Shown one piece after another: positions 7,544 through 29,998 of a stretch of DNA of 64,000 nucleotides (its first letter is position 1; every line of letters begins with the position of its first letter). Under the pieces are notes generated by a model, which had not been told where the DNA came from, did not search any database, and saw only the letters and a list, made by a program, of their open reading frames with translations. The stretch is from Rhizobium gallicum bv. gallicum R602sp. Its GTDB lineage: Bacteria; Pseudomonadota; Alphaproteobacteria; Rhizobiales; Rhizobiaceae. Both the position numbers and the translations under genes were made by a program. The stretch lies in NCBI RefSeq assembly GCF_000816845.1, contig NZ_CP006877.1, positions 2,919,501 through 2,983,500 of the forward strand, read 5' to 3'.

Positions 7544-7941
7544 ATGTCATTTCCCCTGGATGCGAGCCAACATGACTGCATCTCTTTTTGGTCTGTAGTT
7601 CCCTTTTATCGGAACCTCATATGCGGCATCCATACCGTTTTCCGTGAAAATGTGAAGACAAAAAGGCTTTACTGGGTCAGATTCTTGGCGAAACGGACGT
7701 AAATGGCGCGTTTCCGCCCAAAATCCACACTAAAGAGGCATTCCCTGAGGAAATTTTAGCCAGAAACCGGCTGTGGATTAACCAAATCGCCTGCGAGGCG
7801 GGCAGCTTTAAGCATGGCACTTATTCCATAAAACCGGAACTTTTGGCAAATTCCTACGAAATTCAAAGGCCGGACGCGAAAAACGTTTCAAACGAACGGC
7901 CTGCCGGGCGTTGCAATTAGCAAATGCGCCAGTGCCAACTT
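7544..7941. other. Intergenic region upstream of the liv operon
   Basis: About 400 bp with no convincing gene. It is noticeably more AT-rich than its surroundings and must contain the liv promoter and leader on the minus strand. I did not find a clear operator, riboswitch or attenuator. Confidence 0.5.
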
Positions 7942-8334
7942 TCACGGATTCCAGCCGCCGCTGCCATAAGGACGCGTGATGATTTCGAGCAGGTGACCGT
8001 TCGGATCTTCGAAATAGAGACCGCGTCCACCGTCGTGGTCATTGGTTTCGCTTGGCTTTCTCTGGCCGGGATCGGCCCAGTAGCGCAGGTTCCGCTCTCG
8101 AATTCGATTGAATATCGCGTTGAATTCAGCGTCGCCGACAAGGAAGGCGTAGTGTTGGCTTACGATCTCACCCTTCGTATCCATATAGTCGAGATTGGCA
8201 TCGTTGTCGGTCGTGACCATGTGGAACGGCCCCCACCGCCGCGGCGGCGACAGGCCCAGCATATCGGCCAGGAAATCTGCCGAGGCCTTACTGTCTCGAG
8301 CCGACAGAATAGTATGATTGAAGTGGATGGCCAT
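7942..8334 (-). CDS. VOC (glyoxalase/bleomycin resistance) family protein
   Basis: A 130-residue vicinal-oxygen-chelate protein. It begins MAIHFNHTILSA with the metal-ligand His at residue 6 and ends with FEDPNGHLLEIITRPYG, carrying the second conserved acidic ligand. The frame extends 19 codons further upstream, but the internal ATG is chosen because it matches the usual family N-terminus. Members include glyoxalases, ring-cleaving dioxygenases and fosfomycin or bleomycin resistance proteins; which one this is cannot be told. Confidence 0.82.
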   Translation of the reverse strand: MAIHFNHTILSARDSKASADFLADMLGLSPPRRWGPFHMVTTDNDANLDYMDTKGEIVSQHYAFLVGDAEFNAIFNRIRERNLRYWADPGQRKPSETNDHDGGRGLYFEDPNGHLLEIITRPYGSGGWNP

Positions 8335-8657
8335 CTTGGTCTCACGAAAATGAGGCGGAGCTTCAATGCGGTGGGTTTCGCCGGTTAACACGCCCGCCCG
8401 CCTCTTTGTTCCGGGCAGTCACACCTTGAGCTGAGGGGGGCGAATGTTGCACGAGCACAAAAGTGGGCCGCTTCATCGGAAAACGTGCACCTTAAGTTAA
8501 AATCCGTCGCTTCTCGGGAGCTGCCATTTGCATAGCGAGAAGTCGAGCCGAATTCGATCCTTTCCCACGCCCTCTGACTTCAAATCTCTTTCGAAGCAAC
8601 GTAAACTCCCATCGGTGGAAGGGCCTTGGCGGGCCCGGAGCAGATCGGGCGGGCGGC
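8335..8657. other. Intergenic region between divergent VOC and methyltransferase genes
   Basis: About 320 bp between divergently transcribed genes. I see no gene, and no clear operator or terminator. Confidence 0.4.
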
Positions 8658-9140
8658 ATGAACGAGGTGAGCGGGAATTGGCGCGACGGTTCAGGCGCGG
8701 CGGTGCGGCCGCCGATCGCCTGGGCGCTCGCTGTAGTTGCCGGGCTCGCGCTCGACTGGCTCTATCAGCTGCCGTTCATGCCGGCGGCCATGCCGGCCGG
8801 CGCTCTCGGCGGCATTGTGTTCCTCGCCGGACTGGCGCTGCTGATCTGGGCGGCGGGGACCTTCCGCCGTGCGGGGACGCAGATCCAGACCACCCAGCCA
8901 ACGGCGACCATCGTCGACCAGGGACCCTACCGCTTCACGCGCAACCCGATCTATATCGGCATGTTCCTCGGCCTCATCGGCTTGGCCATCGCTCTCGACA
9001 GTCTGTGGCTCGTCGTCCTGCTGGTGCCGTTCTATCTCGTCATCCGCTACGGCGTGGTCGCCCGCGAGGAGGCCTATCTCGAGCGGAGGTTCGGGGACAT
9101 CTATCTCGCCTACAAAGCCCGCGTCCGGCGGTGGCTGTAG
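8658..9140 (+). CDS. Isoprenylcysteine carboxyl methyltransferase-family membrane protein
   Basis: A 160-residue integral membrane methyltransferase of the ICMT/PEMT superfamily. Four hydrophobic segments are visible. The diagnostic region is GPYRFTRNPIYIG (near residue 93), followed by a C-terminal REEAYLERRFGDIYLAY motif that forms the SAM pocket in this fold. Bacterial members act on small lipophilic substrates or are uncharacterised, and prenylated proteins are not expected here. Isolated single gene. Confidence 0.82.
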   Translation: MNEVSGNWRDGSGAAVRPPIAWALAVVAGLALDWLYQLPFMPAAMPAGALGGIVFLAGLALLIWAAGTFRRAGTQIQTTQPTATIVDQGPYRFTRNPIYIGMFLGLIGLAIALDSLWLVVLLVPFYLVIRYGVVAREEAYLERRFGDIYLAYKARVRRWL

Positions 9141-10257: not shown

Positions 10258-11076
10258 ATGTTAGCGATATTCGAAAAGGCGGCGCTTGAGGCGGGTAGAA
10301 CGATCATCGCGATCTTCGACGAAGGGTGCGCTGTCGCGACGAAAGCTGATTCAAGTCCCGTGACCCGCGCGGATGAAGAAGCGGAGCGGATCATCCTTGC
10401 CCATCTTGCACGCAGCTATCCAGATATTCCGGTGATTGCCGAAGAATCGGTGGCGGCCGGCCACGTGCCGGATATCGAGGGTAAGGCTTTCTTCCTTGTC
10501 GACCCACTCGACGGCACGCGCGAATTTGTCGACAGGCGGCGGGAATTCACGGTCAACATTGCCTATGTGGAGCATGGCGTGCCGCATGCGGGCATCGTAT
10601 ATGCACCGGCACTCGGTATTGCTTTTGCAGGCAAGGCAGGACACGCGGAAAAACTCCTCGTCGGCAGCGATTTTAAAGTGACTGAACGCATTGCAATCAC
10701 GGTCCGCCCACCACCTGCCAAGCGCCTCGCTCTTGCCAGCCGCAGCCACAAAAATCCCGCGACCGACAGCTTTCTCATCGAGCAGGCGATCTCCGAATGC
10801 ACCAATATCGGCTCTTCGCTGAAATTCTGCCTGCTTGCCGAGGGAAAGGCCGACGTCTATCCGCGCTTCGGCCGGACGATGGAATGGGACACGGCGGCGG
10901 GCGACGCGATCCTGCGCGCTGCGGGCGGCACGACCGTTACCATGGACGGATTACCGCTGACCTACGGCAAAACCGGCGACAAGGCGGATTTCGACTTCGC
11001 CAATCCCGACTTCATCTCCTGGGGTGGCAAGGAAATGGCTGTGCGGATGCAAATGGCCTCGGGCGAAACCCCTTAA
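10258..11076 (+). CDS. cysQ: 3'(2'),5'-bisphosphate nucleotidase CysQ / inositol monophosphatase family
   Basis: A 272-residue Mg2+-dependent, Li+-sensitive phosphatase. The metal-site motifs are present: EE in VIAEESVA, DPLDGTREF, and WDTAAGDAIL. Family CysQ enzymes hydrolyse 3'-phosphoadenosine 5'-phosphate during sulfate assimilation. The frame is open further upstream, but the ATG at 10258 follows a good ribosome site (TGAGGGG) and gives the usual CysQ start (MLAIFEKAALEAG). The downstream sequence enters the accessory region. Confidence 0.88.
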   Translation: MLAIFEKAALEAGRTIIAIFDEGCAVATKADSSPVTRADEEAERIILAHLARSYPDIPVIAEESVAAGHVPDIEGKAFFLVDPLDGTREFVDRRREFTVNIAYVEHGVPHAGIVYAPALGIAFAGKAGHAEKLLVGSDFKVTERIAITVRPPPAKRLALASRSHKNPATDSFLIEQAISECTNIGSSLKFCLLAEGKADVYPRFGRTMEWDTAAGDAILRAAGGTTVTMDGLPLTYGKTGDKADFDFANPDFISWGGKEMAVRMQMASGETP

Positions 11077-11149
11077 AAATCAAAAAAAGAATGGCGTGCA
11101 GCTGACCGTGACGGCGAAGGCAGCCCTCCCGCCCGCAACCCCGTTGGAT

Positions 11150-11680
11150 GGAGGGCTATCTAGCGGGCCGTAGACTCATAAGCGCGGAGCCAAAGCCGCA
11201 TGGAGGCGAGCTGAACCATAGCGAGAAGTTGACGGCGAGCTGGTCGTATCGGGTGGCGACGCCGCGTGTCAACTACAACGTGTATCTTCGTCGTGAGCCC
11301 GCCGCGCGATCGACCGAGACAATGATCTGGGACCTTTTTTGCCGTCGCAGCCTGCTGGTGGGCGCCAACGGAAGTGCTGTCGATCATCTGGATCTCACAG
11401 TCTTGCGCAGCCGTGATACTCTCCATCACCCGGCCCCACATGCCTGCCTTGCGCCATCGCACGATGCGGTTGTAACAGGTGGTGCGCGGACCATAGCGCT
11501 CGGGCAGGTCGCGCCAAGGCGCACCAGATCGCAGCACCCAAAAGATGCCGTTCAGCACGCGTCGATCATCGACACGCGGAACACCTCATGGCTTGTTTGG
11601 TAGCAGCGGCTCGATCACGCGCCATTCAAAGCCTGTCAGGTCATATCGGCTCATGGTGAGCCCTGAATCAGAATCCGGCG
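11150..11680 (-). mobile_element. Remnant of an IS5-family insertion sequence
   Basis: Extent estimated from the transposase remains. The two edges share a short inverted AGGGCT core (GGAGGGCT at 11151 against AGCCCT near 11658), which may be what is left of the terminal inverted repeats. No target duplication could be assigned. It marks the left edge of the accessory region. Confidence 0.6.
11160..11654 (-). pseudogene. Degenerate IS5-family (IS427-like) transposase
   Basis: Read on the minus strand, the frame begins MSRYDLTGFEWRVIEPLLP, the usual start of IS5/IS427-type transposases. It is broken by a TGA where a Trp codon is expected, about 23 codons in. It continues through GIFWVLRSGAPWRDLPERYG and the DSTSV motif of the DDE domain, then jumps out of frame into a recognisable C-terminus (RYDQLAVNFLAMVQLAS in another frame). 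The middle third of the catalytic domain is missing. The element therefore carries a nonsense mutation, an internal deletion and a frameshift, and cannot make active transposase. Confidence 0.85.
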
Positions 11681-11999
11681 CGATGTGAAAGCGGTCAGTC
11701 GGTAAACGGCCACAAAGCGGCCAATCATTCAGCGAAATCTAGAGTCGGCTTCGCGCCTGCATGGCGCCGTTGGACACAGACTTATTCGATCCCGTAAGCG
11801 GGCGTTCGGACATTGTAGCCGCACGAGTTGCGCCCGCACCTTTCGGCTCCGCCATGCTCGCCGACATGACTTTCGTCGCCTAGCCGCTGCCGGGCCAGTT
11901 CGGCGAGTTCAATCGCCTCGACTTCAAGGTAAGTATGGCCCAAATGGCAACGCAACAGCCCGTCTATCGACTTGGAATCCTGAGGCCGCTCCAGGGGCG
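11681..11999. other. Non-coding or degenerate sequence after the IS remnant
   Basis: About 320 bp without a supportable gene. It is probably debris of earlier insertions; no hairpin, repeat or RNA gene was recognised. Confidence 0.35.
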
Positions 12000-12308
12000 C
12001 TACGACCCCTTCTTGACGTCTGGAAGGTTCGTCACGCCATCCGCGATTGCGCGCGCAAACGCCCGCAGTGTTGCCGTGTAATTGGTGAAGCGCTTCTTAT
12101 CGAGCTTGATCGGATCGCCCTCCTTGAGCGCGATATTGCGCCCTGCCGCCGTCGTTACTCGGGTGATCGCCTTGCGGTTGAACACCTGGATGCCGTGAGC
12201 GCAGAGATTGCGGACCGTCACCGCTCGACGACCGCGCGCGCTTGCCGCCTTTGATCCCGACCAGTCGCGGCCGCCCGCTTTTAAGATGGCATCGCTCCAA
12301 ACTTCCAT
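12000..12308 (-). CDS. Hypothetical short protein, possibly a gene fragment
   Basis: A 102-residue frame, basic (many Lys and Arg), with a C-terminal helix-like segment FTNYTATLRAFARAIADG. I do not recognise a family. It lies alone between IS debris and the GTPase/cyclase operon, on the opposite strand, with no obvious ribosome site. It could be a remnant of a mobile-element gene or a chance frame. Confidence 0.3.
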   Translation of the reverse strand: MEVWSDAILKAGGRDWSGSKAASARGRRAVTVRNLCAHGIQVFNRKAITRVTTAAGRNIALKEGDPIKLDKKRFTNYTATLRAFARAIADGVTNLPDVKKGS

Positions 12309-12309
12309 T

Positions 12310-12328
12310 GCTACGTCAGTGACGTAGC
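12310..12328. promoter_or_regulatory. Perfect inverted repeat upstream of the GTPase/cyclase operon
   Basis: GCTACGTCA-G-TGACGTAGC: 9-bp arms around a single base, 124 bp before the first gene of the four-gene operon. It has the size and symmetry of a dimeric repressor or activator site. No neighbouring regulator gene was recognised, so this is a candidate operator only. Confidence 0.4.
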
Positions 12329-12451
12329 GCTCGGCTGCGTCACGATTCGGTTTGAGTCAAGAAGATTCCGGCTTGTGGGCCGGCTATTTTGCTGACATTG
12401 TTAATGTTTGGGGTTGCACTGTGGCAGGTGTTCAAATGGAGGGGCATAAGG

Positions 12452-13102
12452 ATGGCAAAGGAATCTTCGAGTACCGCTTCTTCTGCGAATAAGGCGGACG
12501 AAAATCTGATAGGTAATGCAGAGGGAAACGGGCTGAACTTCATGGCGGCCCAGGCCCGCGAGGGCGGGATCTCCGGTGACGCCGTAGGTGTCGACAAGAT
12601 ACGCGATCTGCTGTTCGGCAACCAGATGCAGGACTATGACCGCCGTTTTTCCAAGCTTGAAGACCGGTTCTTGCAGCGCTTCAAGGATGTCGAATCCGAG
12701 GCCAAGCGCAATCTTGAAACGTACGAGTCAAATGCAAAGAAGCAGGTCGAATCGCTCGCGGCGCAATTGCGGAGCGAAAAAGATGCACGAGCCGAGGCCG
12801 ACAAGGAGATTGACCGGAATCTTCGCGAGCAAAATCAGGCACTTGAAAAGCAGGTGCGCGCGTTGTCGGATCAATTGAGCGAGCTTGAGCGCGACGTTGC
12901 GGACCGGATAAATCGAAGCGATCATTTGCTGCGTGAGGAAATCAAGCAAAAGAATGAAAGCATTCAGATGCTAATGGAGAAAATGTTTTCCGATCTCAGC
13001 AACGTCAAGACCGACAGAAATCTTTTGGCTGGCCTGTTTGTCGAGGTTGCAAAATGCATAAATCAGGATTCCGGCGGTAGCAAGAGCAAACTCGGAACGT
13101 AG
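12452..13102 (+). CDS. Coiled-coil protein, first gene of the GTPase/cyclase operon
   Basis: A 216-residue soluble protein. The first 45 residues are low-complexity and rich in Ser, Ala and Asn; residues 55-185 are a long charged coiled coil (heptads through EIDRNLREQNQALEKQ and beyond); the C-terminal 30 residues (LAGLFVEVAKCINQ) may be a small helical cap. The start is set by a strong ribosome site (GGAGGGG, 9 bp upstream), although the frame is open for another 21 codons. No enzyme motif is visible. It is followed after 23 bp by the OmpA-domain protein, so it is probably a structural or adaptor partner of that protein or of the GTPase; this is inference from position. Confidence 0.8.
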   Translation: MAKESSSTASSANKADENLIGNAEGNGLNFMAAQAREGGISGDAVGVDKIRDLLFGNQMQDYDRRFSKLEDRFLQRFKDVESEAKRNLETYESNAKKQVESLAAQLRSEKDARAEADKEIDRNLREQNQALEKQVRALSDQLSELERDVADRINRSDHLLREEIKQKNESIQMLMEKMFSDLSNVKTDRNLLAGLFVEVAKCINQDSGGSKSKLGT

Positions 13103-13125
13103 CTGGAAAGTGAGTTGATCGGAAC

Positions 13126-16100
13126 TTGACGTCGACCGTCGACCCAATCAGGCTTCCTCAAAGAGCCGCCTCGAACGATACCGAAATCGATCGCGCGGCT
13201 CTGGCTATTCTTTTGGTCGAAATTGCCCGGAACATTGATCCGGACCATCATGCGAGTTTCGACGGAATTCCAACCGCCGATCGTCGCATGGAAACGCTGC
13301 GCCAGTTGCTGGTCGGCCGCGAAATTTCGGAGCTTTCACGAGTTACCCATCTGCTGGGCGAACCGGAGCAGCTTGCGGAAGCAGTGGGCGGCATTCTTCC
13401 CAGTGCAGCCGCACGGGCGCCTCGTGCGCAGCTCGGCGAGGCCCTTGCGCCAGCCGTCGAGAGGGCTGTGCAACGGTCGATCCAGAAGAGCCCGGGCACG
13501 CTGACGGATATATTATACCCGGTGTTTCTGCCGGCAATTCGCAAGTCGATCGGGGAAAAGATCGACCAGACCTTTCAGTCGCTGAATGAAACTTTAAGAC
13601 ATATATTTACCTGGCATGGGCTCAAGTGGAGATTTGAATCTTGGAGAACTGGTGCCAGCTTCTCGGAAGTTGTTCTGAAGCATTCTCTTGTCTATCGTGT
13701 AGAACATGTCTTTCTCATTAACCGAAATTCCGGGCTTTTGATCGCGCATGTAACTGCCGATAATGCAACGAGCGAGGATCCTCAACTCATTTCTTCGATG
13801 CTCAGTGCAATTCAAGACTTTGTTAAAGACTCATTTAACGAGAAAGAACAGAGCGGCCTGGACACTATCCGCTTTGGGGAGCTTCGTCTCTGGTCAGAAG
13901 TTGGACCGTTTGCGACCTTGGTTGCGGTGATCCGGGGAAATCCGCCAGAGGAATTACATGAAATAGTTCGCGATGTGTTGCTTCGCATCCATGATGAATA
14001 CTCACAGGCTTTAGAGCAGTTTGACGGCGACGGTTCTCAGTTAGCCGGCATAGAGACGCAGTTGCAGACCTGCGTTGAACTGAAGCAGGAGGACTCAAAC
14101 CAGGGATTTCCGTGGCTGGTGGTGGCTGCAGTCCTGCTGGTTTTGATTCCGGCAGGCGGTTGGTTCTTTCTTTCCTGGCAATCCGGGCAGCGCTGGCAGG
14201 CCTATGTGTCGCGACTGGGGACCCAGCCGGGCATCATCGTTGCCGAACAAAAGGTGCGCGATGGCCAATTCTATATTACCGGCCTGAGAGACCCGCTTGG
14301 CGCCGACCCGCAGTCGCTGTTGTCTGGAACGCATGTCGATCCCGCCCGCGTTCATTCGCAATGGCAATTCTATCAGAGCCTTGAGCCGGAGTTCGTGTTG
14401 AAGCGGCTGACGGCGTCGCTGGCTCCGCCGGATACAGTACGACTTTCGATCGTCAAGGATCGCATCGTTGCCGAGGGTGAGGCTCCCGACACCTGGATAG
14501 ATCGGGCGCGCGCAGCGGCCCGACAGCTTTCGGCAGGCGGACCGGAATTCGACATCTCCAAGGTTCGTGATGTGAGCCCCGAAGCACGCGCGGCGGAGCA
14601 CTGGCAGTATTATGTGTCGCGACTTGAGGCCCAACCGGGCATCATCGTCGCCCAACAAACGGCCAGGGGCGGCCAATTCTACATTTCCGGCCTGAGAGAC
14701 CCGCTTGGCGCCGACCCGCAGTCGCTGTTGTCTGGAACGCATGTCGATCCCGCCCGCGTTCATTCGCAATGGCAATTCTATCAGAGCCTTGAGCCGGAGT
14801 TCGTGTTGAAGCGGCTAACGGCGTCGCTGGCTCCGCCGGATACAGTACGACTTTCGATCGTCAAGGATCGCATCGTTGCCGAGGGTGAGGCTCCCGACAC
14901 CTGGATAGATCGGGCGCGCGCAGCGGCCCGACAGCTTTCGGCAGGCGGACCGGAATTCGACATCTCCAAGGTTCGTGATGTGAGCCCCGAAGCACGCGCG
15001 GCGGAGCACTGGCAGTATTATGTGTCGCGACTTGAGGCCCAGCCGGGCATCATCGTTGCCGAACAAAAGGTGCGCGATGGCCAATTCTACATTTCCGGCC
15101 TGAGAGACCCGCTTGGCGCCGACCCGCAGTCGCTGTTGTCTGGAACGCATGTCGATCCCGCCCGCGTTCATTCGCAATGGCAATTCTATCAGAGCCTTGA
15201 GCCGGAGTTCGTGTTGAAGCGGCTGACGGCGTCGCTGGCTCCGCCGGATACAGTACGACTTTCGACCGTCAAGGATCGCATCGTTGCCGAGGGTGAGGCT
15301 CCCGACACCTGGATAGATCGGGCGCGCGCAGCGGCCCGACAGCTTTCGGCAGGCGGACCGGAATTCGACATCTCCAAGGTTCGTGATGTGAGCCCCGAAG
15401 CACGCGCGGCGGAGCACTGGCAGTATTATGTGTCGCGACTTGAGGCCCAGCCGGGCATCATCGTTGCCGAACAAAAGGTGCGCGATGGCCAATTCTACAT
15501 TTCCGGCCTGAGAGACCCGCTTGGCGCCGACCCGCAGTCGCTGTTGTCTGGAACGCATGTCGATCCCGCCCGCGTTCATTCGCAATGGCAATTCTATCAG
15601 AGCCTTGAGCCGGAGTTCGTGTTGAAGCGGCTGACGGCGTCGCTGGCTCCGCCCAAATCTGTTCTGCTTTCGATCGTCCAGGGTCGCATTGTTGCCGAGG
15701 GTGAGGCCCCTGCCAACTGGATCAACCGGGCGCGGGCCGCCGCAGAACAACTTTCGGCGGACGGAGTGGTTCTGGATGTCTCGCAGCTGCGTGAGCTGAA
15801 CCTTGCAGAATTTAATTATTTGAGAGAGGCCATCCAGGCGACCGATATTTTCTTCTATTCCGGCAAAGCTGTGCCGGGACCAGAGCAGATGCCGGTCATC
15901 GACAGGTTGGCGGATCAAATAAAGGAATTCGCCCAAAATGCCCGCAAGTCAGGCGTAACAGCGCGGTTCATGTTGACCGGCCATGCGGACGCCACGGGCC
16001 GTGAGACGCCCAACGTGTCGATCAGCGCCGCCCGCGCCGAGACAGTTCGTGCGCTTCTCAACAAGCGCGGCGTCGCTCCGGAACTGCTGCTGGTTCGGGG

Positions 16101-16191
16101 CGCTGGCACCTTTGAGCCGGTGGTGCCTGAAAACAGTCGAACTGGGAGCTCCACCAATCGCCGGGTTTCGATTACGGTAAACCTAGAGTAG
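13126..16191 (+). CDS. Inner-membrane protein with cytoplasmic domain, four 136-residue repeats and OmpA/MotB-type C-terminal domain
   Basis: A 1021-residue protein with likely MotB-like topology. Residues 1-326 carry no signal peptide and should be cytoplasmic. A single membrane helix lies at about 327-349 (PWLVVAAVLLVLIPAGGWFF). Residues 357-902 hold four near-identical 136-residue repeats, each starting near YVSRL..QPGIIV, containing GLRDPLGADP, and ending in a BON-like half (VRLSIVKDRIVAEGEAP). Residues 905-1021 are an OmpA-C peptidoglycan-binding domain, with the Asp of TGHADATG and the Arg of SISAARAET. Translation must begin at or after the TTG at 13126, because an in-frame TGA lies 15 bp upstream. 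It is tightly packed with a coiled-coil gene before it and a GTPase and cyclase after it, suggesting it anchors or senses at the cell wall and signals inward. Confidence 0.85.
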   Translation: MTSTVDPIRLPQRAASNDTEIDRAALAILLVEIARNIDPDHHASFDGIPTADRRMETLRQLLVGREISELSRVTHLLGEPEQLAEAVGGILPSAAARAPRAQLGEALAPAVERAVQRSIQKSPGTLTDILYPVFLPAIRKSIGEKIDQTFQSLNETLRHIFTWHGLKWRFESWRTGASFSEVVLKHSLVYRVEHVFLINRNSGLLIAHVTADNATSEDPQLISSMLSAIQDFVKDSFNEKEQSGLDTIRFGELRLWSEVGPFATLVAVIRGNPPEELHEIVRDVLLRIHDEYSQALEQFDGDGSQLAGIETQLQTCVELKQEDSNQGFPWLVVAAVLLVLIPAGGWFFLSWQSGQRWQAYVSRLGTQPGIIVAEQKVRDGQFYITGLRDPLGADPQSLLSGTHVDPARVHSQWQFYQSLEPEFVLKRLTASLAPPDTVRLSIVKDRIVAEGEAPDTWIDRARAAARQLSAGGPEFDISKVRDVSPEARAAEHWQYYVSRLEAQPGIIVAQQTARGGQFYISGLRDPLGADPQSLLSGTHVDPARVHSQWQFYQSLEPEFVLKRLTASLAPPDTVRLSIVKDRIVAEGEAPDTWIDRARAAARQLSAGGPEFDISKVRDVSPEARAAEHWQYYVSRLEAQPGIIVAEQKVRDGQFYISGLRDPLGADPQSLLSGTHVDPARVHSQWQFYQSLEPEFVLKRLTASLAPPDTVRLSTVKDRIVAEGEAPDTWIDRARAAARQLSAGGPEFDISKVRDVSPEARAAEHWQYYVSRLEAQPGIIVAEQKVRDGQFYISGLRDPLGADPQSLLSGTHVDPARVHSQWQFYQSLEPEFVLKRLTASLAPPKSVLLSIVQGRIVAEGEAPANWINRARAAAEQLSADGVVLDVSQLRELNLAEFNYLREAIQATDIFFYSGKAVPGPEQMPVIDRLADQIKEFAQNARKSGVTARFMLTGHADATGRETPNVSISAARAETVRALLNKRGVAPELLLVRGAGTFEPVVPENSRTGSSTNRRVSITVNLE
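14197..15830 (+). repeat. Four tandem copies of a 408-bp in-frame repeat
   Basis: The same anchor (TATGTGTCGCGACT) occurs at 14203, 14611, 15019 and 15427, exactly 408 bp (136 codons) apart. Copies 2 to 4 are almost identical at the DNA level, including third codon positions. The outer parts (start of copy 1, second half of copy 4) are more diverged, as expected for recent expansion by unequal crossing-over within an older single unit. Confidence 0.95.
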
Positions 16192-16206
16192 TGCGGAGCC
16201 AGGATA

Positions 16207-16698
16207 TTGCAAAAAAAGATCTGCATGTTGGGTGGGTTCGCTGTCGGAAAGACGAGTCTGGTCCGCAGGTTTGTGCAAAGCATCTTTTCAGATACCTACC
16301 TGACCACGGTGGGAGTGAAAATCGACAAGAAGACTGTCGCACTCCCGGACAAAACCGTGGATCTGATTTTGTGGGATTTGGCCGGCGAAGACGATATCGG
16401 CTCATTCCGCGTCAGCAATGTGCGGGGTGCGACCGGGCTCGTGCTTGTCGTCGATGGAACCCGCGCCGCTACTCTTGCCGTGGCGCTCACTCTGCGCGAG
16501 CGGGCCGAGGCCGAATTCGGCGCTATGCCGTTTGTATTGCTGTTCAACAAATCCGACCTGGCCGATCGGTGGGCAATATCGGATAGTGAGATTAACGAAC
16601 TCAGGCAACTTGGATGGCAAATCTTTCTAACAAGTGCGCTTTCGGGTGAACATGTTGATGATGCGTTTCGTCAGCTTGCTTCGATGGTTACCAAATAG
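16207..16698 (+). CDS. Ras/Rab-like small GTPase
   Basis: A 163-residue single-domain GTPase whose numbering lines up with Ras. G1 P-loop GGFAVGKTS is at 9-17, a switch-I Thr at 33-34, G3 WDLAGED at 56-62, G4 NKSD at 114-117 and G5 TSA at 142-144. The residue at the position of Ras Gln61 is Glu. There is no C-terminal prenylation motif, as expected in a bacterium. The start is TTG at 16207 with GGAG upstream, 15 bp after the OmpA-protein stop, and the stop is 3 bp before the cyclase start. In bacteria such GTPases act as polarity or signalling switches (MglA is the known example). Here it probably couples the membrane protein to the cyclase; that coupling is inferred from the operon. Confidence 0.9.
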   Translation: MQKKICMLGGFAVGKTSLVRRFVQSIFSDTYLTTVGVKIDKKTVALPDKTVDLILWDLAGEDDIGSFRVSNVRGATGLVLVVDGTRAATLAVALTLRERAEAEFGAMPFVLLFNKSDLADRWAISDSEINELRQLGWQIFLTSALSGEHVDDAFRQLASMVTK

Positions 16699-16701
16699 AC
16701 C

Positions 16702-17772
16702 ATGCATAGATTGCCAAGAGAAGTCGGAAGCTGGATTTACGATTTCTTCTACAATGAGCACTCTGTCGCATATCTGAAAATTGACGACCAGCTTTGCATA
16801 GCTGCGAAGGGCGGTAACGTTAAACATTACGGGCTCTCATCGCTTCGCATTGGCAAGCCTGTTGCCGATCAGCTTGAATTTATGGAAGGTTTGCTGCCTT
16901 GCCCGGAGCTTCCATATCATATGGCCATGGTCGAACTGCCCAGCGGGCGTGTCGCGGACCTTCATCTTTTTGCCGGCAATGCCTGCGTGTGGCTGCTCTT
17001 TCTTGACGCCACTGCCGAACGCGACAACAAGCAGCGGCTCCAACAGAAGGCTTATGAAATGACGCTCCTGCAAGAGAGGGAGCGTCAACTCAACGAGAAA
17101 TTACAATCGATGAACGAGGCGTTGAGGAAGAGCCAGGAGGGATTGTCGCGTGAATACCAGCGCGCCGAATCCCTACTCCTCAACATTCTTCCGGCGTCGA
17201 TCGCGGAGCGGTTAAAAGCGCACAAAAAAATTGCAGACAACCACACAGAGGTGAGTGTGCTTTTTGCCGACATCGTCGGTTTTACGGAAAGAACGCGTAG
17301 CGTCGGAGCCGTGACGACGCTCGCTATCTTAAATTACTTCTTCAAGGCGGCGGATCGGCTCTCGGAACGATACGGCTGCGAAAAGATCAAGACAATCGGC
17401 GATTGTGTGATGGTGGTCGCTGGCCTGCCCACCGCGCGATCCGATCATGCAGGAGCCCTCGCGCACTATGCACTTGAACTGCGGAAGGCGGTTAAGCGCG
17501 AACGCTTCGCAGGAGAACCGCTGAGACTCAGAATTGGAATTCACTCGGGACCAATCGTCGCTGGCGTCATAGGCAAAAGGCGGTTCGCTTATGACCTGTG
17601 GGGCGAGACCGTTAATCTCGCCTCGCGCATTCAAACGTCCGCGGAGCCCGATGAGATCCGTATTTCGGATGCAACTCGCCAACTGCTTGGACCAAAATTT
17701 GCTTGCGACCCACTCGAGGAAACGGAATTGCGTGGTACAGGTCGTGTGCGAATGTGGCGGCTCCTGGCTTGA
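16702..17772 (+). CDS. Class III adenylate cyclase with N-terminal PAS-like domain
   Basis: A 356-residue soluble cyclase. Residues 1-105 look like a PAS-type sensory domain, 106-160 form a coiled coil, and NILPASIAERLK (161-172) is the usual linker into the catalytic domain. All catalytic positions are present: metal Asp190 (FADIVGFT) and Asp234 (KTIGD), adenine-specifying Lys230 and Asp298 (YDLWG), and transition-state Asn305 and Arg309 (VNLASR). The Lys/Asp pair predicts ATP rather than GTP as substrate. It is the last gene of the four-gene operon, 3 bp after the GTPase. cAMP output under control of the GTPase or the membrane protein is a reasonable inference. Confidence 0.9.
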   Translation: MHRLPREVGSWIYDFFYNEHSVAYLKIDDQLCIAAKGGNVKHYGLSSLRIGKPVADQLEFMEGLLPCPELPYHMAMVELPSGRVADLHLFAGNACVWLLFLDATAERDNKQRLQQKAYEMTLLQERERQLNEKLQSMNEALRKSQEGLSREYQRAESLLLNILPASIAERLKAHKKIADNHTEVSVLFADIVGFTERTRSVGAVTTLAILNYFFKAADRLSERYGCEKIKTIGDCVMVVAGLPTARSDHAGALAHYALELRKAVKRERFAGEPLRLRIGIHSGPIVAGVIGKRRFAYDLWGETVNLASRIQTSAEPDEIRISDATRQLLGPKFACDPLEETELRGTGRVRMWRLLA

Positions 17773-18326
17773 TTTGCCGCTTGGCAGTGCCGACCCTGGA
17801 ACGCATTGCATCTCAAGCTAATCAAACATCATGGTTTCGAATGTCCGCAGAGGTGCGCGAAGCAGTCGACCACCGAGCGACCGCCAAAGGTCTGTCCCGG
17901 GTCAACTCAGGACATCGGATCCTGGAGATTTAAGTCCGCTATCGTTCTTCCCTGCGCCACAAGCGGACCTACTGCTCTCGGCCCAATCCCGGACAAAGGT
18001 AGCGCAATTGGGTATACCTCAATGCGCTCAGGCTCAGAACTCGAGCAAGCGGATAGCCCCATGGGCTGGGTCAGAAATACGCCGCAGCAACCGCAATGGT
18101 TGCGGTGGTCGCGAAAGCCTATTGTGGGACGGTGCAAAAATCAGGCGGCCGGAATCGACGCTAAGCGGGAGCTCGCTTGCTCCGGATCAATTCTCCGCCA
18201 TGACCCGCAGCGGACTATGTCCGCGTGTCGCCAATGCCCGCTTTGCGCCTTCAAGCACGAACCCGTTTCGCGGCTGTGCCGCGCGCTCGGCGCCGCTACA
18301 TCACAAACTATCTGATCGCACGAAGC
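17773..18326. other. Intergenic stretch after the cyclase operon
   Basis: About 550 bp without a supportable gene. Several short frames exist but none resembles a known family or has a ribosome site. No hairpin terminator was recognised immediately after the cyclase. Confidence 0.4.
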
Positions 18327-18911
18327 TCAACGCGGCCGCCGCAGCATTGGGACGAGCGTCGGCGACGAACCGACCTGGATCGCGCCGAGCGGTTCGAAGC
18401 CATAGCGTCGGTAAAACGGAAGGTTGCGCGGGTTCGAGGATTCCAAATAGGCTGGCGCGTGATCGCGGTCGCACCGTGCGAGTGCGTACACCATCAAGGC
18501 GTCGCCGTGACCTTCGCCTTGATGCGCCGGGTCGACGCCGATCAGGGGCAGGTACCAATGTGGTTCGGTCGGGTGATATGCGGCCATCTCCTCGAATATG
18601 GCCGTGGTTTCGGGGGCAATAGAGCGCGCAACCGTGCTCTCGATCACCGCACCAAGCTCTTCCTCGTCGGAATGTACTCCGGGCGATAGCCACAGCGCCG
18701 TCCCAGCGTAGCCGTCGGTGCAAAAGGCGCTTCCGTTAGAGAATGCGCTGCTCCCGAAGGCCCGGATCATTCGCGGCATGGCCGCAAGGTACTGGTGTCC
18801 ATGCGGCCAGGTCCATCGCGCCATCGGATCCGCTGCAAACGCCAGCACGACCGTTTCCACCGCCAGATCTTCCTCGGCCGCGGCCATAACTCTCGCTGTT
18901 GGTGATTTCAC
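18327..18911 (-). CDS. GNAT family N-acetyltransferase
   Basis: A 194-residue acetyl-CoA-dependent acetyltransferase. Motif A is at LPLIGVDPAHQGEGHGDALM (Q/R-x-x-G-x-G/A type) and the C-terminal strand is NLPFYRRYGFEPLG. The start is a GTG preceded by AGGAGGG. This subtype resembles acetyltransferases near antibiotic biosynthesis or resistance genes, but the substrate is unknown. It stands alone in the accessory region, convergent with the cyclase operon. Confidence 0.82.
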   Translation of the reverse strand: MKSPTARVMAAAEEDLAVETVVLAFAADPMARWTWPHGHQYLAAMPRMIRAFGSSAFSNGSAFCTDGYAGTALWLSPGVHSDEEELGAVIESTVARSIAPETTAIFEEMAAYHPTEPHWYLPLIGVDPAHQGEGHGDALMVYALARCDRDHAPAYLESSNPRNLPFYRRYGFEPLGAIQVGSSPTLVPMLRRPR

Positions 18912-19297
18912 ACTGCCCTCCTGACGTAGATGGTCCGACGAGGCGCCCGCGCCCGTTTTCAGCTACGCATCGTAACTCGGATGGCGTGGGAGCGATACCG
19001 GTTGCTGCTGGCTCAGCGGTTCCGGATTCGCTGGCCGTAGCCGACCAGTGATGTGTTTGATCTGCTTTCGGGAGCCGTGAGAAGTCATGCGAATGTCTGT
19101 TCAAGGTCGATACGGAACAACCGCTTCTCACAGATTTTTATCCCGCTTATCGGCGCAAATGGCTCCCGTTGAACGAATTCACCGAACCGCTATGCGCCAT
19201 CGAGCCACCCGGCGCTGTTGCTGCAAAGCGCACATGACGCGGTGACAACGCGGGTCGCAGTTGCGCCAAAAGCCGCCATTCCGCCCCATGCGAGTGA
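18912..19297. other. Intergenic stretch between GNAT and sulfite oxidase-like genes
   Basis: About 390 bp with no recognisable gene. An 8-bp inverted pair GTGAGAAG / CTTCTCAC flanks a 40-bp segment near 19080-19130; its meaning is unclear. Confidence 0.35.
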
Positions 19298-20839: not shown

Positions 20840-21363
20840 CACAAAATCGACCTCGACGAACCCTGGTGGCGGATCGTTCCAATCCCCGAAGGTGCGCACC
20901 GGAACTGATCGGCGAACCGCTGAACTCATTGCTGCCCGCCGGCGCTGACCGCCGCGCGCGACGATACGTACTTCCGTCAAGAGCCGATCGATCGTTGCTG
21001 CGCTTACAGCAGCTTCGAGCAGAGTTTACCATCGAGCTGCAATCGGCCATGCCGCTCAAGGGCAGGCAACAAGACGGGGATCATCGGTCGCAGTCGTTTG
21101 GAGCACAGTCGCTCGGACGCCTCCCACAGCACGATCAGCGCCTCGCGGACATCTTCGCCATAAAGAGCGCTGTGCCTCTTGCTCGCAAGTGACTTCTTCT
21201 CACGACGGTTCAGCGCGCGGATTGCATGCTTTCGATGATAGCCCGTCACCGCTACAAACTCATCCAATATACGGCATTTATCCTCTCGACGAGCCACTTT
21301 GTATCGCTCAGTAATTGCCTCGATCAGTTCCGATCGCGTCGCCATGCTGATCCGCCCGACCAT
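20840..21363 (-). pseudogene. ISNCY-type (integrase-core) transposase, truncated and frameshifted
   Basis: The minus-strand frame starts MVGRISMATRSELIEAI and runs through the helix-turn-helix region (VTGYHRKHAIRAL). It is interrupted by a frameshift near 21002 and continues in another frame as SAATIDRLLTEVRIVARGGQ to PPPGFVEVDFV, then ends at 20840. In intact relatives known to me the DDE catalytic core follows this point, so the whole catalytic part is lost. The junction abuts the DMT transporter fragment. Confidence 0.8.
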
Positions 21364-27850: not shown

Positions 27851-28029
27851 CCATGGTCAATTCAGAGGACTTGCGGTCCTCTTCCTTATCGCAATCAGCA
27901 CCATTCATTGGCTTTCTCCCGAGATTGACGACCTACTTGCAGGACGCGCGAAGCCGTCGACTGGATGTCCAGTCTTCGAAGCGCTGCCGCCGACACTAGC
28001 CGTCGGCAGATCACGATGTTTCAGCCCGC

Positions 28030-28728
28030 TCAGGCGGTCCTGGTCTTCATCTGGCTCAAAGCGGCTAAAAGCGCCTCCGCTGCCTCACTCGATGACGCGG
28101 GGTTCTGACCGGTGATGAGTTGGCCATCAACGACCGTGTGCACACCCCAGTCCTTGACCTTGGAGAAGACCGCGCCGAGGCTGATGAGTTCGTCCTCCAC
28201 CAGGAACGGCACGACCTTCGTGAGACCTACGGCCTCTTCCTCGCTATTGGTGAAGCCGGTGACGTAGCGACCTTGAACGAACGGCGTGCCGTCGGGATTG
28301 GTCACCTGACGCAGGACGCCCGGGGCATGGCAGACGAGAGCGATCGGCTTGCCGGCCGCGGTGAAGGATTCGATCAGCTTGATCGAATTCGGATCTTCGG
28401 CCAGATCCCACAGCGGGCCGTGGCCGCCGGGGTAGAAGAGCGTATCGAAGTCCTTCTGGTCGACGCTGTCCAGGCGCACAGTTCCCGCGAGCTGCGCCTT
28501 GGCAACCTCGTCATTCATGAAGCGCCGCGTAAGGTCCGTCTGGAACATCGGCTCGTCGCTCTTCGGGTCGAGTGGCGGCTGGCCGCCCTTCGGCGAGGCG
28601 AGGGTGATCTCGGCGCCGGCGTCCTTGAAGAAGTAGTACGGCGCTGCCAGCTCTTCGAGCCAGAAGCCGGTCTTCGTGCCGGTGTTACCGAGAGTGTCGT
28701 GGGAGGTGAGTACCATGAGGACTTTCAT
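28030..28728 (-). CDS. Type 1 glutamine amidotransferase-like protein (DJ-1/PfpI family)
   Basis: A 232-residue protein beginning MKVLMVLTSHDTLGNTG, typical of the Hsp31/PfpI-like group. The nucleophile elbow is ALVCHAPG, with Cys near residue 138, and the acidic partner lies in FYPGGHGPLWDL. Family members act as glyoxalase III/deglycases or stress chaperones. It is transcribed divergently from a LysR regulator 166 bp away, the usual arrangement in which the regulator controls the enzyme gene. Starts further upstream in frame lack a ribosome site. Confidence 0.85.
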   Translation of the reverse strand: MKVLMVLTSHDTLGNTGTKTGFWLEELAAPYYFFKDAGAEITLASPKGGQPPLDPKSDEPMFQTDLTRRFMNDEVAKAQLAGTVRLDSVDQKDFDTLFYPGGHGPLWDLAEDPNSIKLIESFTAAGKPIALVCHAPGVLRQVTNPDGTPFVQGRYVTGFTNSEEEAVGLTKVVPFLVEDELISLGAVFSKVKDWGVHTVVDGQLITGQNPASSSEAAEALLAALSQMKTRTA

Positions 28729-28894
28729 CGTTCGGATCCCTTCGTCAGATGATACGCCGTGAGGGCGTCGTAGCCGGTTGATTTGGAGCTCGATCAGCCG
28801 CATCGGCCTTTCGATGAGCTGATAATGGCACCTGCCCACATATATCAGAAATTTACTTCTTTGATTTTAGATATTCATATGAGATTACATCTCG
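28729..28894. promoter_or_regulatory. Divergent promoter region of the DJ-1/PfpI and LysR genes
   Basis: A 166-bp AT-rich spacer between divergent genes. It contains an imperfect dyad around TTCATATGA near 28873, and T-N11-A patterns compatible with LysR binding. A likely operator region, inferred from layout. Confidence 0.5.
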
Positions 28895-29806
28895 ATGAGA
28901 TACGACCTGAACCTGCTCCCGGTTTTCCTCGCACTGATGGAGGAGCGGAGCGTCACACGGGCGGCAGCGCGACTAGGCATCACCCAGCCGGCGCTTTCCA
29001 ACTCGTTGAACCGCCTGCGCGATACCCTGCGGGATCCGCTGTTCATCCGTGAACGGTACGGCATAAAGCCGACGCAACTGGCCGAGGAGATCGCTCCAAC
29101 GATCGAAGCAGCGCTGGCCCAACTGGACGATCTCGTTTTGAACCAGCAGGAGTTCCAGCCAGCAAACGCCGAACGACTGTTCACGCTTGCCCCGAACAGC
29201 TACGTGGAGCTTGTGTTGATGCCGGGCCTCGTTGCGAGGACGCGTGAGCTGGCGCCAGGTATCAAGCTCCGCATGACAGCATTCGGCAACGATCTCGCCG
29301 AGACCGGCGTCATTTCCGGTACCACGGCCATGGTGCTTGGCCGCATCGTCGATCCGCCGGACAATCTTGTCGTCCAGCATCTTATGGACGATGGGCTCGC
29401 CTGCGTGGTGCGCAAGGACCATCCCGACGTTCGAGACCGTATTTCCCGAGAACAGTACGAACGGCTCAAGCATGTGAACGTGCTCCCGCCGGGCCGGCTG
29501 CGCGCGGGCCTCTTCCAGGCATTGGGGCAACAAAACCTCAAGCGAGAAGTCGCCGTTTCTGTCACGCACTTCCTTGCCGTGCCCGAGATGCTTGTCGTCA
29601 CGGACTACTGCGCAACGCTGCCGAGCCTTATCTGTCGCAGCCTCGAGCGGGATTCGCGCCTGAAGGTACTACCGGCGCCCGTCGACCTCGGCACTTTTCC
29701 AGTGCAGATGGCTTGGCACGTTCGCTACCGCCACGACCCTGCCCACAGGTGGTTGCGTTCAATGATCGGCGAACTGGCAAAAGAAGTGACTTCGGAAGAG
29801 ACCTAA
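28895..29806 (+). CDS. LysR family transcriptional regulator
   Basis: A 303-residue regulator. The N-terminal winged helix-turn-helix spans residues 1-65 (RYDLNLLPVFLALMEERSV, TRAAARLGITQPALSN), followed by a periplasmic-binding-like effector domain. The N-terminus is of the NodD/NahR-like branch that starts with the R-x-DLNLL motif. It probably controls the divergent DJ-1/PfpI gene and itself. The effector is unknown. Confidence 0.9.
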   Translation: MRYDLNLLPVFLALMEERSVTRAAARLGITQPALSNSLNRLRDTLRDPLFIRERYGIKPTQLAEEIAPTIEAALAQLDDLVLNQQEFQPANAERLFTLAPNSYVELVLMPGLVARTRELAPGIKLRMTAFGNDLAETGVISGTTAMVLGRIVDPPDNLVVQHLMDDGLACVVRKDHPDVRDRISREQYERLKHVNVLPPGRLRAGLFQALGQQNLKREVAVSVTHFLAVPEMLVVTDYCATLPSLICRSLERDSRLKVLPAPVDLGTFPVQMAWHVRYRHDPAHRWLRSMIGELAKEVTSEET

Positions 29807-29998
29807 GATGGCTTTCTCGTATGCGTGTTGATCTCTGACTCAACCGCGGGCGCCCTCCCGCGCAGCGAGTTCGTTCTACGGCCCCAAAGCAGACCTTCGC
29901 AGCATGAGCACGACTGCTATAAAAAATTACGCGAAATCAACGAATTGCTCCGGACCCGCCTACTCCGCAGACTGAGAATACCCCGGCGCTGTGGAGTT

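Follow-up and report, generated by a model that had tools for sequence, protein, structure and literature searches.

A conserved, probable Group 1 Rup gene unit of Rhizobium gallicum with an adenylate cyclase output and a predicted longin-fold membrane protein

A stretch of 64,000 nucleotides of the Rhizobium gallicum bv. gallicum R602sp genome (contig NZ_CP006877.1, positions 2,919,501 to 2,983,500, hereafter the window) carries, at 12452-17772 on its forward strand, genes for a coiled-coil protein, a membrane protein with a C-terminal OmpA domain, a Rab-like GTPase (Rup) and a class III adenylate cyclase. We consider it probable that these form a Group 1 Rup unit with an adenylate cyclase output, in which a wall-anchored protein would set the amount of Rup-GTP through nucleotide exchange by a longin-fold domain, and Rup-GTP would act on a PAS-fold effector module containing Gln115 and hence on cyclic AMP (cAMP) synthesis. 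This is a real, conserved and apparently horizontally transferred signalling unit, within which we infer the guanine nucleotide exchange factor (GEF) and GTPase-activating protein (GAP) roles, the sensing of the wall, the formation of dimers and the sign of the effect on cAMP.

The four-gene unit and its occurrence

Four co-directional genes with gaps of 23, 15 and 3 bp had been proposed from the letters alone, and open reading frame calls and Pfam bore this out. All lie on the forward strand: gene 1 (12452..13102; 216 amino acids, identified by frame call and profile) encodes the putatively cytoplasmic coiled-coil protein, gene 2 (13126..16191; 1021 amino acids, TTG start) a protein made of a cytoplasmic domain, a transmembrane helix, repeats and an OmpA domain, gene 3 (16207..16698; 163 amino acids, TTG start) a Rab-like GTPase of Group 1 Rup type, and gene 4 (16702..17772; 356 amino acids, ATG start) a class III adenylate cyclase preceded by an N-terminal PAS-fold domain and helix. 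The original prediction also held that no characterised pathway has this composition. The composition itself was described in 2014, as Group 1 Rup, by Wuichet and Sogaard-Andersen, who reported the same four components in Group 1 neighbourhoods and assigned a Mesorhizobium loti member to the group (PMC4316618). The word "uncharacterised" did stand, as by 2014 experimental work had characterised none of the Rup members (PMC4316618) and neither a later characterisation nor a longin assignment was found in the literature searched, in which subscription journals are thinly covered.

The window's genes share with Group 1 a coiled-coil protein, a protein in which an unnamed domain of unknown function is joined to an inner-membrane helix and an OmpA domain, a Ras-like GTPase without the G3 glutamine and an output protein with an invariant N-terminal glutamine. 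They differ in that the output is a class III adenylate cyclase rather than one of the "typical" classes, diguanylate cyclase/phosphodiesterase or histidine kinase; it is thus a signalling enzyme of an untypical class, and the typical classes are not defining according to PMC4316618. In addition, structure prediction here gives the unnamed domain a longin/roadblock-like fold and the N-terminus of the output a PAS fold. The present analysis would add the adenylate cyclase output, a SpoIIE output and, most importantly, the longin prediction, although an adenylate cyclase output may already be contained in the supplement of PMC4316618.

One genome per species was scanned, which yielded 330 relatives, and 80 of these were kept: 67 loci of the Mesorhizobium/Rhizobium type (59 with all four genes, and 8 whose contig begins only after gene 1) and 13 distant ones. 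Gene-2 profile searches, in samples that partly overlap and include the query genomes, matched 25 of 297 in the window's order and 51 of 398 in its phylum, together with 25 of 194, 5 of 198 and 3 of 188 in the phyla of Scytonema, of a Desulfobacterales metagenome-assembled genome (MAG) and of a Myxococcales MAG respectively. Fragments apart, these matches formed two classes, strong and weak (the latter at E about 1e-20 to 1e-45 and with more divergent neighbours). The 141 loci examined, namely the window, the 80 loci of the species scan and 60 stretches from the profile searches (labelled with L numbers below), comprised 113 strong matches, 20 weak ones and 8 that were cut by contig ends; most of them are close rhizobial relatives and the independent number is far smaller. 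Same-strand adjacency in the order coiled coil, gene 2, Rup, output was found in 58/62 rhizobial strong loci, 38/51 other strong loci and 2/20 weak loci. All four rhizobial failures had shortened gene-2 frames, and the 13 non-rhizobial failures include contig ends, merged frames, outputs below threshold, the inverted locus L206, and L169 and L207, where no Rup was recognised. The co-occurrence of the four families in order, put forward as a check on the original prediction, was therefore found well outside the rhizobia, with the same set in Scytonema and in the Desulfobacterales MAG as well as in those 38 loci; the Myxococcales MAG has the same gene set with gene 1 truncated by the contig end. 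A lack of conservation outside this strain, which had been named as refuting the idea, was looked for and did not hold.

The membrane protein and its predicted longin domain

The cytoplasmic domain of gene 2 is predicted to have a longin/roadblock fold over residues 189-323 (13690..14094, forward strand). An AlphaFold2 model of the N-terminus, built with 18 sequences, has the topology H-EE-H-EEE-H-H, and shows both the beta-beta-alpha-beta-beta-beta-alpha order and the structural match expected of such a domain. A Foldseek search with the domain model returned 21 matches at E <=0.001, all of which we take to be entries of the longin/roadblock superfamily. With VIA-align the Z scores were 15.2 for Sec22b, 13.9 for both Ykt6 and Vamp7, 12.8 for Fuzzy-Inturned, 11.1 for a Lokiarchaeota longin, about 11 for TRAPP subunits and 10.4 for Mon1-Ccz1, compared to the 7-8 that, by the tool's own guidance, is usual for the top Z when a model has no clear match. 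As a specificity control, the model of the output N-terminus was searched in the same way, and the best 50 of each of two lists were PAS, phytochrome and similar domains, with no longin among them.

Sequence profiles were less informative. A PDB profile search with the domain gave, up to E 10, a single and weak match, to a Roadblock/LC7 protein (E 0.35); no eukaryotic longin was reached up to that value, and the full-length profile of 18 rows found only unrelated proteins in the PDB. A Peptidase_M16_C match, seen in 4/18 relatives, was judged to be due to chance (at best E 0.0097 and 16.2 bits, where the cut-off is 23); its span, 157-241, covers 53 of the 135 residues of the predicted longin domain.

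The topology of gene 2 is predicted from a hydropathy scan, in which the sole strong hydrophobic stretch (residues about 331-349; 14116..14172, forward strand) would form a single transmembrane helix and leaves some 330 residues N-terminal to it, in agreement with the proposed single-pass protein with a cytoplasmic part of 326 residues. The C-terminal OmpA/MotB domain was likewise recovered, as a Pfam OmpA match (PF00691, 2.1e-11) of peptidoglycan-binding type at residues 910-1012 (15853..16161, forward strand). Between the two, and overlooked in the original prediction, lie tandem repeats that are predicted to be periplasmic (14189..15734, forward strand; 408 bp x 3.8, 95% matches), with a unit of 136 amino acids in nearly identical copies. 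The stop-to-stop frames of gene 2 in the 62 rhizobial loci cluster at 887-896 amino acids (22 loci) and 1017-1027 amino acids (26 loci, the window's own frame being 1025), so that 48/62 loci fall into two clusters about one repeat unit apart. Repeat counts are based on tandem-repeat detection and frame lengths, as a regular-expression search undercounts diverged copies. The repeats could serve as a stalk whose length can be adjusted, or mark a hot spot of recombination.

Several loci depart from this architecture. In L009, L010, L024 and L042 (4/62 rhizobial loci) the gene-2 frame is shortened to 504-712 amino acids while the other genes are kept, which could be decay or assembly errors within the repeats. 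A frame of 3113 amino acids in L207 (929-10270) starts with the gene-2 domain and continues into a long stretch that is open in several frames; no Rup was recognised near it. In L206, genes 1 and 2 lie on one strand and Rup, with a stand-alone output domain (7729-8754), on the other. The gene-2 homologues of L181-L192 and L198-L205, from the window's order and the phylum of Scytonema, form a second class that is divergent, with a Rup-type GTPase in 19/20 of these loci, that of L189 being divergent.

GTPase, output and genomic setting

Gene 3 matches Ras in Pfam (3e-27). It had been described as a GTPase with all five G motifs, and the motifs are indeed there, but the catalytic glutamine of G3 (motif DLAGED) is not, being replaced by E61. 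None of the 109 readable strong loci has a glutamine at this position and 99 have glutamate (in one more it was unreadable and three had no Rup), while in the weak class it was present in two loci. Compared with solved structures, the best 60 of 798 matches were Rab, Ypt and Sec4 proteins and a Thorarchaeota Rab, with Rab23 first and no MglA among those. Pfam scans of the four products and of 10 neighbouring frames gave no Robl_LC7 match, and thus no adjacent MglB gene of the kind that marks MglA/MglB systems. The Rup tree was built without an MglA or eukaryotic outgroup, and the MglB-type loci intended for it (about 3 kb each) contained no GTPase that the Rup profile recognised.

Gene 4 is, from its domain match and residues, a class III adenylate cyclase, and cAMP synthesis is assigned to it on those grounds. 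Its catalytic domain (residues 179-354; 17236..17763, forward strand; Pfam PF00211, 1e-49) contains every catalytic residue, as had been claimed: D190 and D234, presumably the metal aspartates, K230 and D298, presumably selecting adenine, and N305 and R309, presumably the catalytic pair. Adenylate cyclases 9, 5 and 8 and Cya-type catalytic domains were its best matches among solved structures. Gene 4 resembles Cya-type cyclases (5o5k, 4p2f and others) over residues 141-355, in the cyclase domain and in the helix before it; these cyclases we take to be of mycobacterial origin with a membrane anchor of their own, which gene 4 lacks, having a PAS-type, GTPase-associated N-terminus instead. An HNOBA match in the helix (8e-5; 22.6 bits, just below the Pfam cut-off of 23.4) was attributed to the usual cyclase linker and not to a nitric oxide sensor.

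The N-terminus of gene 4 is predicted to be a PAS fold (residues 20-103; 16759..17010, forward strand) followed by a long helix, in a model with a mean predicted local distance difference test (pLDDT) score of 89 and VIA-align scores of 10.6 to photoactive yellow protein and 10.3 to the ThkA PAS domain. In the helix after the PAS domain lies Q115 (codon 17044..17046, forward strand), which is glutamine in 113/113 loci covering the position; one locus is cut, and 27/141 loci without a profile match are excluded from the count. Q115 would correspond to the invariant glutamine that was described, in a sequence logo, for the N-terminal region of Group 1 outputs, and that was proposed to be supplied to Rup in trans by the output, with an analogy to the conservon drawn by the authors (PMC4316618).

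Behind this module the enzymes are exchanged. A first set of 21 outputs (the window, two rhizobial and 18 others) contained a class III cyclase in 21/21 cases. Among 24 further outputs Pfam found GGDEF in 7 (one of them the cyclase of L070), HATPase_c in 7, SpoIIE in 6, EAL in 4 and Guanylate_cyc in 4. Counted by locus, the 42 non-rhizobial outputs are 22 cyclases, 7 kinases, 6 SpoIIE phosphatases, 6 GGDEF proteins (4 with EAL) and, by elimination, one without an assigned class (L210). Nine of the 51 strong non-rhizobial loci are outside this count: L071, L155 and L161 are cut, L169 and L207 have no Rup, no output was found in L175, and L194, L197 and L206 have a stand-alone N-terminal domain beside Rup. 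The ratio of output classes reflects sampling, because 17/22 cyclases come from one family (f81). In 21 cyclase rows the column of D298 contains threonine in 14, serine in 3, aspartate in 3 and a gap in 1, and the non-rhizobial cyclases would therefore be of another subtype. Of the 20 weak loci, 13 contributed outputs (15 proteins), and 8 of these proteins contain HATPase_c. In L077 and four loci of its phylum the PAS/Gln domain forms a separate frame of 123-143 amino acids beside Rup (L077 10499-10870, L194 4252-4650, L195 8297-8692, L196 4316-4744 and L197 8292-8672), followed in L077, L195 and L196 by a further output gene.

Gene 1 was detected by profile in 112/113 strong loci. Its description as a coiled coil is consistent with weak Pfam matches to coiled-coil families and with the wording of PMC4316618, and the protein is a putative part of the pathway, for which an adaptor role had been suggested at the outset. 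It has a conserved C-terminal motif (VKTDRNLLAGLFVEVAK) and an alternative upstream TTG start at 12389, to which the same frame is open; a RasGAP match (E 0.16) was dismissed as weak.

Selection or recent acquisition, both suggested at the outset, would fit the distribution of the unit. Rup has a single match in its own genome (7.31 Mb in 4 contigs, the window being on the 4.13-Mb contig) and is present in 5/148 genomes of the genus, its own included (E 1e-30). DNA shared with rhizobial loci usually extends over 12341..17988: similarity begins at 12341 in 20/59 loci and further upstream in 13 (as far as 12049 within the main alignment), and is over by 17988 in 67/67. L057 has an additional adjoining piece reaching 11749 and a few loci have isolated distant matches, and no flanks common to the rhizobial loci were seen in the DNA comparison. 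The ratio of nonsynonymous to synonymous substitution (dN/dS) against three relatives was 0.08-0.30, gene 2 entering only through its N-terminal 326 residues. A plasmid search found the unit in two Rhizobium records and one Mesorhizobium record, with a weak match in Nostoc (27.8%).

Around the unit, a near-perfect palindrome at 12319-12343, GTGACGTAGC-GCTCG-GCTGCGTCAC, lies at the usual 5' edge (12341) of the shared DNA. Rfam gave no match at gathering level over 11000-19000, and neither promoter-like sites (2, against 2.6 in shuffles) nor terminator-like sites (11, against 7.5 in shuffles, standard deviation 2.9) were clearly in excess. The neighbours include a transposase fragment of IS4/5 type (DUF4096; 11160-11558, reverse strand) and a short frame without a Pfam match (21004-21363, reverse strand). 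Positions 28004-29820 of the window match L039 14416-16233 with 87.8% DNA identity; this segment is about 3 kb downstream of the operon in L039 and 10 kb downstream in the window, and may be part of a larger transferred segment.

Proposed pathway, alternatives and meaning

In the pathway that we favour, gene 2 would be a single-pass inner-membrane protein held to peptidoglycan by its OmpA domain through the repeat stalk, and its cytoplasmic longin/roadblock-fold domain, probably dimeric, would dock Rup and most likely promote nucleotide exchange. Altered wall contact or tension would change the local amount of Rup-GTP, which would bind the PAS-fold/helix N-terminus of the cyclase, and the signal may travel through the helix into the cyclase dimer and change cAMP output. 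Gln115 is the candidate for completing the Rup active site in trans, the effector thus also being a GAP; this is suggested because Rup lacks its catalytic glutamine and the sole invariant glutamine of the output region is in the output protein. In other bacteria the same front end would drive other enzymes. The earlier proposal of a route from envelope protein to GTPase to cyclase, itself an inference, agrees with the conserved order, the predicted longin fold and the interchangeable outputs behind one N-terminal domain.

Known systems offer partial likenesses. Like the conservon (CvnA-D) and MglA-MglB, the unit has a small GTPase beside a partner, here a predicted one, of the roadblock superfamily, and in the conservon also a signalling enzyme. 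MglB is a free roadblock protein, whereas the predicted longin-type domain here is part of a transmembrane protein with an OmpA domain. With the eukaryotic longin Rab GEFs (Mon1-Ccz1, Fuzzy-Inturned, TRAPP) the unit would share a longin fold facing a Rab-like GTPase; it differs in that the protein is bacterial and fused to a domain of peptidoglycan-binding type. Roadblock and longin families are thought to be archaeal in origin, with roadblocks sporadic in bacteria (PMC10933270), and a combined table row, "Longin/Roadblock", is marked present in bacteria in PMC4917890.

Several findings weigh against the favoured pathway. The longin model has a mean pLDDT of 56.7, reaching 75-87 only in parts of 190-320, with 18 sequences behind it, and Pfam assigns the domain to no family above cut-off. 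Alignment by hhalign to 19 MglB-like proteins had the expected strand register and was not significant by probability (E 0.0072, probability 5.4%), nor was that of the output PAS domain, used as a control (E 0.16, probability 0.4%). A longin fold alone does not prove GEF activity, and the longins that score best here, those of SNAREs and adaptors, are not GEFs. Three of the 113 strong loci have no recognised Rup gene (one of these, L161, stops at a contig end), and 7 have Rup with no neighbouring output above profile threshold, partly through merged frames. PAS domains often bind small ligands, and the cyclase could also answer to another input. No measured interaction or GTPase, GEF, GAP or cyclase activity was found for any Rup system in the literature searched.

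The alternative that survives best, which we regard as unlikely, is that the longin-type domain is a GAP or a passive docking platform, as in MglB or Ragulator, with Gln115 no more than a part of the effector interface. The Foldseek list does include MglB entries (3t12, 3t1r, 3t1s, 3t1x and 1j3w; E 3.5e-4 to 2.2e-3, with 19-24% identity in the aligned region) as well as Ragulator and Rag entries, and MglB has been described as both GAP and GEF (PMC11016934). However, longin domains and Rab GEF subunits lead the best 50 VIA-align rows, with no MglB row among those, and a Rup without its catalytic glutamine, together with an invariant glutamine in the output protein, points to the output as the GAP. 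Distinctly less likely again is a reverse or sideways flow, in which the cyclase would respond to a metabolite through its PAS domain, and the GTPase and membrane protein would only position it at a wall site or pole. The predicted PAS fold and the role of bacterial small GTPases such as MglA in polarity would suit this, but the PAS/Gln domain is found with Rup whichever of the observed output classes is present, and its occurrence free of an enzyme beside Rup in the five loci listed above suits a GTPase partner better than the ligand sensor of one enzyme, with the caveat that three of them nonetheless have an output gene next. That independent envelope and signalling genes are travelling together as island cargo is very improbable: the nearby transposase fragment, the lack of common flanks and the patchy distribution in the genus would allow it, but distant lineages have the same genes in the same order, with a different enzyme at the end, and the dN/dS values given above also speak against it.

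Our wider proposal, that of a bacterial trans-envelope G-protein pathway in which a peptidoglycan-bound longin exchange factor acts on a Rab-like GTPase and the effector supplies the missing catalytic glutamine on a swappable PAS/helix module, is tentative. To our knowledge, pathways running from a membrane receptor through a small GTPase to a second-messenger enzyme are considered eukaryotic. If the proposal is true, the pairing of Rab and longin would extend past Asgard archaea and eukaryotes to bacteria, there in the form of a transmembrane receptor, and eukaryotes would not be alone in controlling adenylate cyclase through a small GTPase. The unit would then be a compact bacterial link between the state of the cell wall and cAMP, with a front end reused for cyclic di-GMP, kinase and phosphatase outputs. 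The longin prediction would give the unnamed partner domain of Rup a testable biochemical role, and would bear on the origin of the Rab-longin pairing.

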